A stretch of 41,808 nt of DNA from Paracoccaceae bacterium (GTDB taxonomy: Bacteria; Pseudomonadota; Alphaproteobacteria; Rhodobacterales; Rhodobacteraceae), in NCBI GenBank assembly GCA_019911965.1, contig JAIOJF010000041.1:1-41808 (forward strand). The letters run 5' to 3'. This document shows positions 19,818 to 21,186 of the stretch, in pieces. Numbering within the stretch: position 1 is the first letter of the stretch; each line of letters opens with the position of its first letter. The position numbers and the translations under genes are program-made. Under the pieces are notes generated by a model that saw only the letters and a list, made by a program, of their open reading frames with translations, was not told the DNA's origin and did not search any database.

Positions 19818-19962
19818 TCACGAATCCGCGGAGCCAGGCCATTCCTTTGGCGCTTATCGCCCTGTCAGAACCTATTTCGGTGACATCTCGTTCAGGCATT
19901 CATGTGTAAAAACATCAGACTGCCGGAAAAACTTCAACTGACATCCGAAGTAACCTCCGCTG

Positions 19963-19978
19963 TAAACCACTTCTTAAC
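19963..19978 (+). promoter_or_regulatory. CtrA-like site in the cckA-recA gap
   Basis: TAAA-N7-TTAAC matches the CtrA consensus TTAA-N7-TTAAC with one mismatch. It lies about 36 nt upstream of the -35 box proposed for recA. Such sites occur by chance in AT-richer gaps, so this is a weak call that gains some weight from the neighbour cckA. The remaining 145 nt after the cckA stop hold only weak short hairpins. Confidence 0.3.
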
Positions 19979-20013
19979 CTTGCCGCGAAATGCTGTGGTT
20001 GCGACGATTTATG

Positions 20014-20042
20014 TTGAAATGTTCTCTGTTTGATCTCATAAC
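20014..20042 (+). promoter_or_regulatory. recA promoter
   Basis: TTGAAA (20014-20019), a 17-nt spacer and CATAAC (20037-20042) give a good sigma-70 type promoter (5/6 and 4/6 consensus bases). Transcription would start about 20049, inside the SOS box, so a bound LexA would block initiation directly. A second half-related element, GTTC-N7-GATC (20021-20035), lies in the spacer and resembles a degenerate SOS box. Confidence 0.6.
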
Positions 20043-20047
20043 GTCGA

Positions 20048-20062
20048 GAACAAGAGGCGAAC
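20048..20062 (+). promoter_or_regulatory. LexA (SOS) box of recA
   Basis: GAAC-AAGAGGC-GAAC is an exact match to the alphaproteobacterial SOS box GAAC-N7-GAAC. It sits 51 nt before the recA ATG and overlaps the predicted transcription start. Its spacer AAGAGGC also acts as the likely ribosome binding site of a 12-codon ORF that starts at the next base. Confidence 0.85.
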
Positions 20063-20101
20063 ATGAGCAGTGATTGCCGCGACAACCCGGATATGAAATA
20101 A
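20063..20101 (+). CDS. 12-codon leader ORF upstream of recA
   Basis: An ATG directly after the SOS box opens a frame [12 protein letters not shown] and stop TAA. Its putative ribosome site AAGAGG (20052-20057) is 5 nt upstream. The stop codon (20099-20101) overlaps the AAGAGG (20100-20105) that serves recA, whose ATG is 11 nt beyond the stop. The geometry is that of a leader peptide whose translation could open or couple to the recA ribosome site. The frame differs from that of recA. It is too short for family evidence and may be fortuitous. Confidence 0.45.
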
Positions 20102-20112
20102 GAGGCCCCAAG

Positions 20113-21186
20113 ATGGCAACAGCACTTCTGGACTTCAGCGAAAGACGCGACATGGACAAACAAAAGGCGCTTGACTCGGCCCTCAGCCAGATCGAACGGA
20201 ATTTCGGCAAGGGCTCGATCATGCGGCTCGGGCGGGACGGCCCGGTGGCCGAGATCGAAGCCACCTCGACCGGCTCGATCGGGCTCGACATCGCGCTGGG
20301 GATCGGCGGCCTGCCAAAGGGGCGGATCATCGAGATTTACGGCCCGGAATCCTCGGGCAAGACCACGCTGGCGCTGCATTCGATCGCGGAAGAACAGAAA
20401 AAGGGCGGCATCTGCGCCTTTGTCGATGCCGAGCACGCGCTGGACCCGCTCTATGCCCGCAAGCTCGGGGTCAATCTGGACGAATTGCTGATCAGCCAGC
20501 CCGATACCGGCGAACAGGCGCTGGAGATTACCGACACGCTGGTGCGTTCGGGCGCAGTATCGATGGTGGTGGTCGATTCGGTGGCGGCGCTGACGCCGAA
20601 ATCGGAACTGGAAGGCGATATGGGCGATCACCAGGTCGGCGCCCAGGCCAGGCTGATGAGCCAGGCGATGCGCAAGCTGACCGGCTCGATCTCGAAATCC
20701 AAATGCACCGTGGTCTTCATCAACCAGATCCGCATGAAGATCGGCGTGATGTTCGGCAGCCCGGAAACCACTTCGGGCGGCAATGCGCTGAAATTCTACG
20801 CCTCGGTGCGCATGGATATCCGCCGCATCGGCGCGATCAAGGACCGCGACGAGGTGGTCGGCAACTCAACCCGCGTCAAGATCGTCAAGAACAAGGTGGC
20901 GCCGCCCTTCAAGCAGGTGGAATTTGACATCATGTATGGCGAAGGCATTTCCAAGACCGGCGAATTGCTGGACCTCGGCGTGAAGGCCGGCGTGGTGGAA
21001 AAATCCGGCTCATGGTATTCCTACGGCGACGAGCGGATCGGCCAGGGCCGCGAAAACGCCAAGATCTACCTGAAGGAAAATACCCGCACGGCGCTTGAAA
21101 TCGAAGACAAGATCAGGGCCGCACACGGGCTGGATTTCCACATGCCCGAAGGCGGCGACGAGGATGCTGATGTCGTCGAAGCCTGA
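20113..21186 (+). CDS. recA: Recombinase RecA
   Basis: A 357-residue RecA protein, the strand-exchange ATPase of homologous recombination and co-protease for LexA. The Walker A motif is GPESSGKTT (77-85). Other RecA signatures are [30 protein letters not shown], the DNA-binding loop 1 region [39 protein letters not shown] and [16 protein letters not shown]. The acidic C-terminus ([12 protein letters not shown]) is normal. The ATG at 20113 has AAGAGG 7 nt upstream; an in-frame extension from a TTG at 20074 would overlap the leader region and was rejected. Expression is expected to be SOS-controlled through the box at 20048-20062. Confidence 0.99.

Follow-up and report, generated by a model that had tools for sequence, protein, structure and literature searches.

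The recA gene sets the level of recombination and the SOS switch. In Mycobacterium tuberculosis, recA is transcribed from tandem promoters, one LexA-dependent and one LexA-independent. A second, LexA-independent promoter would follow the same logic as the promoter P2 that we propose below, although the sequences are unrelated, the regulators differ, and the second promoter here is one that we only infer. In Rhodobacter sphaeroides, LexA and RNA polymerase reportedly bind the recA promoter together, and LexA is said both to stimulate and to repress. The LexA boxes of that promoter are reported to be direct repeats, GTTC-N7-GTTC in type, as at the locus described here, and the same work is said to mention no TTGC-N15-TRTGRAATAAG element, the sequence that concerns us most. 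The R. sphaeroides recA/LexA work (Tapias et al. 2002) is cited in PMC6182141 and PMC8565304.

We examined the corresponding recA leader in the window, by which we mean the whole stretch of 41,808 nucleotides that was analysed. Its features are as follows.

20014..20042, forward strand: promoter P1 (TTGAAA at 20014-20019, a 17-bp spacer, CATAAC at 20037-20042)
20021..20035, forward strand: putative second, imperfect LexA-like box, GTTC-N7-GATC, within the P1 spacer
20048..20062, forward strand: LexA (SOS) box GAACAAGAGGCGAAC, an exact GAAC-N7-GAAC
20063..20101, forward strand: 12-codon frame ATGAGCAGTGATTGCCGCGACAACCCGGATATGAAATAA, judged incidental from the variation of its start codon and frame among relatives
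20073..20102, forward strand: bipartite element ATTGC-N15-ATGAAATAAG, conserved in sequence and spacing
20074..20079, forward strand: TTGCCG, the -35-like part of the proposed P2, with TTG in 99-100% of 139 leaders
20092..20102, forward strand: TATG-A-AATAAG, the extended -10-like part of the proposed P2, 17 bp from TTGCCG
20100..20105, forward strand: recA ribosome-binding site AAGAGG, assigned by sequence and overlapping the -10-like part; AAGG in most leaders
20113..21186, forward strand: recA, 357 aa, with its ATG at 20113

The promoter, the exact LexA box and the 12-codon frame had all been called in the initial annotation and are present at these positions, as is the reported overlap between the stop of the frame (TAA, 20099-20101) and the ribosome site of recA (AAGAGG, 20100-20105). 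Rfam gave zero matches in 19900-20200 up to an E value of 10, and at gathering scores a single tRNA in the whole window. Since a TTG at 20074 shares the reading frame of recA, an ORF of 370 residues can be read from 20074 to 21186. We considered an N-terminal extension of RecA from this TTG and rejected it: the three possible frames relative to recA are taken by 67, 38 and 34 of 139 leaders. Because the frame from this TTG varies in relatives, a gene annotation that starts there is probably wrong.

To place the leader among its relatives we used two sets of sequences. The first comprised 152 distinct leaders, 37 from named records (L031-L067) and 115 from genomes within the window's family, where most genera contributed a single genome. 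Membership of the named records in the window's family or in Rhodobacterales was assigned by recA similarity and title; one exact duplicate was taken out, and some genomes may be conspecific with named records. We looked at 148 of 185 recA-bearing genomes (30 + 100 + 18), and the anchor was missing for 2 of 210 recA loci. The second set held 70 leaders from other families and orders, 5 of 75 recA loci being without the anchor. In a further, fresh sample, 108 of 114 family rows and 46 of 56 class rows were used, the rest having been removed by hand with no recorded rule, and one line was lost at the length filter.

P1 was recognised by its profile in 129 of the 152 leaders, and an exact GAAC-N7-GAAC box was found in 136. 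The window's own genome contains 127 matches to this box pattern and 68 to the reversed one; the box is meaningful at recA by its place and not by its mere existence, since the recA leaders of 136 of 152 relatives have it. Of the 129 leaders whose P1 was recognised, 93 have GTTC-N7-GRTC within the P1 spacer and a single one has the perfect GTTC-N7-GTTC; we read the former as a putative second, imperfect LexA box. By the sequence criterion, then, the recA promoter bears a box of the GTTC-N7-GTTC type, as expected of a LexA-controlled promoter in the Alphaproteobacteria, and P1 with its LexA box or boxes agrees with what is reported for R. sphaeroides recA. The proposal of the initial annotation that LexA acts at the promoter start is in keeping with these positions, which would put LexA at the P1 spacer and the start region. 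In the profile of the window's family, P1 (TTGAAA, then TCYCATA) resembles both sigma70 promoters and, by comparison with the RpoH consensus, those of the heat-shock sigma factor RpoH.

The DNA that lies beneath the 12-codon frame is conserved as a bipartite element, (R)TTGC-N15-TRTGRAATAAG, also written (R)TTGC-N15-TRTGRAATAAGG, at 20073-20102. When the halves were searched independently they lay 15 nt apart in 129 of the 152 leaders and 16 nt apart in 3. At fixed spacing, 139 leaders scored above the threshold and 13 below it, with the middle of the spacer nearly free. The most constant positions among the 139 are TTG (99-100%), TG (100%) and, numbered as in the promoter reading below, the A at -11 (99%); several A positions are near-invariant. 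Of 394 family genomes, 263 contain a match to a pattern that joins the LexA box to the element, and 67 of 385 genomes drawn from the class match a variant with GAAC-N7-GTAC, both with a reversed-pattern or equivalent control of 0; these counts are of matches anywhere in a genome. Of the 70 leaders from other families, 36 exceeded the highest score among 70 shuffled controls (each leader shuffled once), 7 of them at spacing 16 and 29 at spacing 15; in two of the 29, L107 and L100, the match is the LexA-overlapped promoter. In the window's own genome the exact element pattern occurs once, before recA; one-mismatch matches number 3, as they do in the control. From this conservation we conclude that the element is almost certainly a real cis-signal, and that it probably serves as a second on-switch or a leader control element of recA. 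The comparison agrees with the initial annotation's picture of a tightly packed stretch between box and gene, which is under strong constraint. We found no account of this element in the titles and abstract openings of a body of literature that includes few subscription papers, and the word recA is absent from the main texts of PMC3616915, PMC4842269, PMC10117765 and PMC4287350.

Two groups of leaders depart from the pattern. In Ruegeria-like leaders (for example L044, L167 and L176) the left half, ATTGCCGCC, is unchanged and the right half reads GTGACA-AAAGG, not RTGRAATAAGG, with the recA start further downstream. In Bradyrhizobium-type leaders (L092, L097, L102 and L105) the LexA-overlapped recA promoter begins ATTGCGAAC, with a TTGC -35 part, and ends GTACATT, and the downstream element is degraded (TTTGTCC...CATAAGG).

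As to what the element does, we tentatively favor a second promoter, P2. Its core would lie just 3' of the LexA box and consist of a -35 part (TTGCCG), a 17-bp spacer, a TRTG extension and a -10 part (AATAAG) that would serve as the recA ribosome site too. P1 would then give a LexA-controlled transcript led by the ribosome site, and P2, with a start predicted near 20109-20111, almost at the recA ATG, would give a basal supply of near-leaderless recA mRNA. The 15- or 16-nt spacing of the conserved halves translates into a promoter spacer of 17 or 18 bp, and the element has both the TTG at -35 with a 16-18 bp spacer expected of sigma70 promoters and the TG at -15/-14 and A at -11 of the extended -10 class (100% and 99% of the 139 leaders, respectively). 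T at -12, in contrast, is avoided (about 1% of the 139 leaders, 0 of 108 and 0 of 46 in the fresh sample, the position being free in the latter patterns). For this reason we term P2 promoter-like and do not class it as a sigma70 extended -10 member. Outside the family the fourth base of the -35 part is C or, in several hits (for example L283, L282, L091 and L235), A; the class-wide search that gave 67 of 385 genomes admitted A or C alone there and is thus no test of this base. Of the best hits upstream of 28 tRNA genes in the window's own genome, 22 carry TTG(A/C); 24 have T at -12 and two have T at -7, under a scoring that favours TTG and TATAAT-like hexamers, T at -12 included.

The placement of the LexA box also bears on P2. 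The distance from box to TTG is narrow, at 10-11 nt in 99 of 128 leaders (the best 2-nt bin), whereas that from P1 to the box drifts, its best 2-nt bin holding only 49 of 118; this difference counts in favor of P2. We also looked for helical phasing of box and element. It appeared in a first sample of 33 long distances (R 0.46, p about 0.001) and did not repeat in a fresh mixed sample (26 distances, p 0.74). A split by family, made after the mixed result was known, gave V 0.41 (p 0.014, n = 14) for the window's family alone and V -0.31 (n = 8) for other families at one per genus; the long-gap sample (26 of 394 genomes) draws on nearly the same genomes as the count of 263 of 394, so the two are not independent.

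Extended -10 motifs of the TGnTA form have been reported for leaderless mRNAs in another alphaproteobacterium, Bradyrhizobium japonicum (PMC4842269). As in the promoters of those leaderless genes, P2 would have TGn before its -10 hexamer and a start near the AUG; unlike them (their hexamer starts T, A), it avoids T at -12. Several points count against P2. G stands at -7 in 88% of the 139 leaders, and the predicted P2 transcript would be without the ribosome site conserved beside it. Counted to the start of TTG, 19 of 32 leaders from other families have the R of RTTGC 10-13 nt past the LexA box. This would place it near where transcription from the LexA-overlapped promoter, which has a TACATT-like -10, is expected to begin, and P2 has no need of such a coincidence. 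A promoter would also leave unexplained a hairpin tendency in the spacer of the window's family.

That tendency is the basis of the next reading, in which the element is an RNA leader: a small stem-loop in the P1 mRNA, directly before the recA ribosome site, that would tune translation or mRNA life. In the proposed stem, AUUGC pairs with GRAAU around a G-R mismatch, and in the window's family there is a variable upper stem. Family leaders fold more stably than copies whose spacer halves were swapped between species (also among divergent representatives, n = 22, z -4.2, 0/200), an excess that was repeated in the fresh family sample (n = 19, z -4.4; n = 32, z -3.6) and that, in windows shifted along the leader, was strongest in the register of the element (z -3.1, n = 39). 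A control set of 55 alaS leaders gave z values of -2.2 to +1.9 over nine windows, seven of them negative. In 46 of 64 cases the mRNA strand gives the better fold, and in 16 its complement does; the conserved block ends at the ribosome site; and the presence of A or G, but not T, opposite the U agrees with the exclusion of T. Because the hairpin tendency in the family's spacer is replicated, the RNA leader is a close rival to P2. Against it, other families show no fold signal (n = 27, z -0.9; n = 46, z -0.5), and one subset of the family shows a reduced signal (n = 27, z -1.9, 6/200). The 36-nt stretch of the window itself forms a weak fold (-3.2 kcal/mol), and that of L112, from the same genus, does not fold. 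Only 3 of 139 leaders have a standard pair in place of the G-R mismatch, the lower-stem columns are without clear covariation, some other families have A opposite the G, and several registers occur with none dominant. A fixed 15-nt spacer is itself unusual for a hairpin. We consider the RNA leader somewhat unlikely as an account of the shared element; the hairpin is possibly an addition specific to the family. We rank the promoter-like reading first for the shared element because the ends of the element stay conserved in leaders, those of the window's own genus included, whose hairpin is weak or missing.

Less probable again is an operator, in which a protein other than RNA polymerase would bind inverted half-sites, RTTGC/A and TGRAAY, about 21 bp apart, as a second control on recA beside LexA. 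The fixed spacing around a nearly free spacer, the near-palindromic column profiles of the halves and the narrow distance to the LexA box would all suit such a site. We consider it improbable all the same: a single exact site in the genome, before recA, is unusual for a regulator, the binding protein is hypothetical, and the match to promoter geometry would have to be a coincidence.

There remains the 12-codon frame. The initial annotation had proposed that the spacer of the LexA box serves as its ribosome site and that its translation tunes recA. Comparison with relatives does not support such a leader peptide. Of the 136 leaders with an exact box, 7 have an ATG immediately after it. In the window's genus 3 of 9 members have it, the others having ATC, ATA, TTC or ACG. 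In the 39 leaders with AT after the box, the third position is C 18 times, A 8 times, G 7 times and T 6 times; without an excess of G, the frame is no commoner than chance. The distance from the box to TTGC is 10 nt in 48 and 11 nt in 51 of 128 leaders (58, 54 and 16 by remainder modulo 3), and because the two distances are about equally common, the reading frame differs between relatives. GAGG is found in the LexA spacer of 54 leaders that lack the ATG and of 4 that have it, and the peptides of the seven ATG-bearing leaders differ beyond close relatives. Conservation of the short frame in close relatives, the comparison on which the initial annotation had staked its proposal, is thus absent. 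From these comparisons the frame is very probably incidental, a by-product of DNA signals: the LexA box, the TTGC block and the TRTGRAATAAG block would by chance combine into a start codon (ATG), an open frame and a stop (TAA) in this species. A regulatory leader peptide, in whose favor stand the intact frame, its SD-like AGAGG and the overlap of its stop with the ribosome site of recA, is highly improbable given the scarcity of the ATG and the shifting frame, and the length of exactly 12 codons in five of the seven ATG-bearing leaders is explained by the fixed conserved blocks around it.

Two other short frames were considered and rejected: an 8-codon GTG frame (GTG ATT GCC ... TGA), of which both GTG and TGA are variable in the profiles, and a minimal RTG-NNN-TAA frame, since the T of its stop is kept in only 82% of the 139 leaders. 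A report on the trpL leader peptide of Sinorhizobium meliloti (PMC10117765) likewise describes a short frame directly before a gene; unlike trpL, as given there, the recA leader varies in start codon, frame and peptide. In the same titles and abstract openings as above, no alphaproteobacterial recA leader peptide is described.

Returning to the promoter-like reading, a broader version of it would hold that many Alphaproteobacteria have a second recA promoter whose -10 is the DNA of the ribosome site, so that LexA-controlled and constitutive, near-leaderless mRNAs arise from one 60-bp region with LexA at a fixed distance. We regard this generalization as doubtful. The conserved signal between the LexA box and the recA start codon is itself common among Rhodobacteraceae and also occurs in other families of the Alphaproteobacteria. 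Such a signal would mean that recA expression in these bacteria receives a second input, beyond the usual picture of a LexA box plus a promoter.
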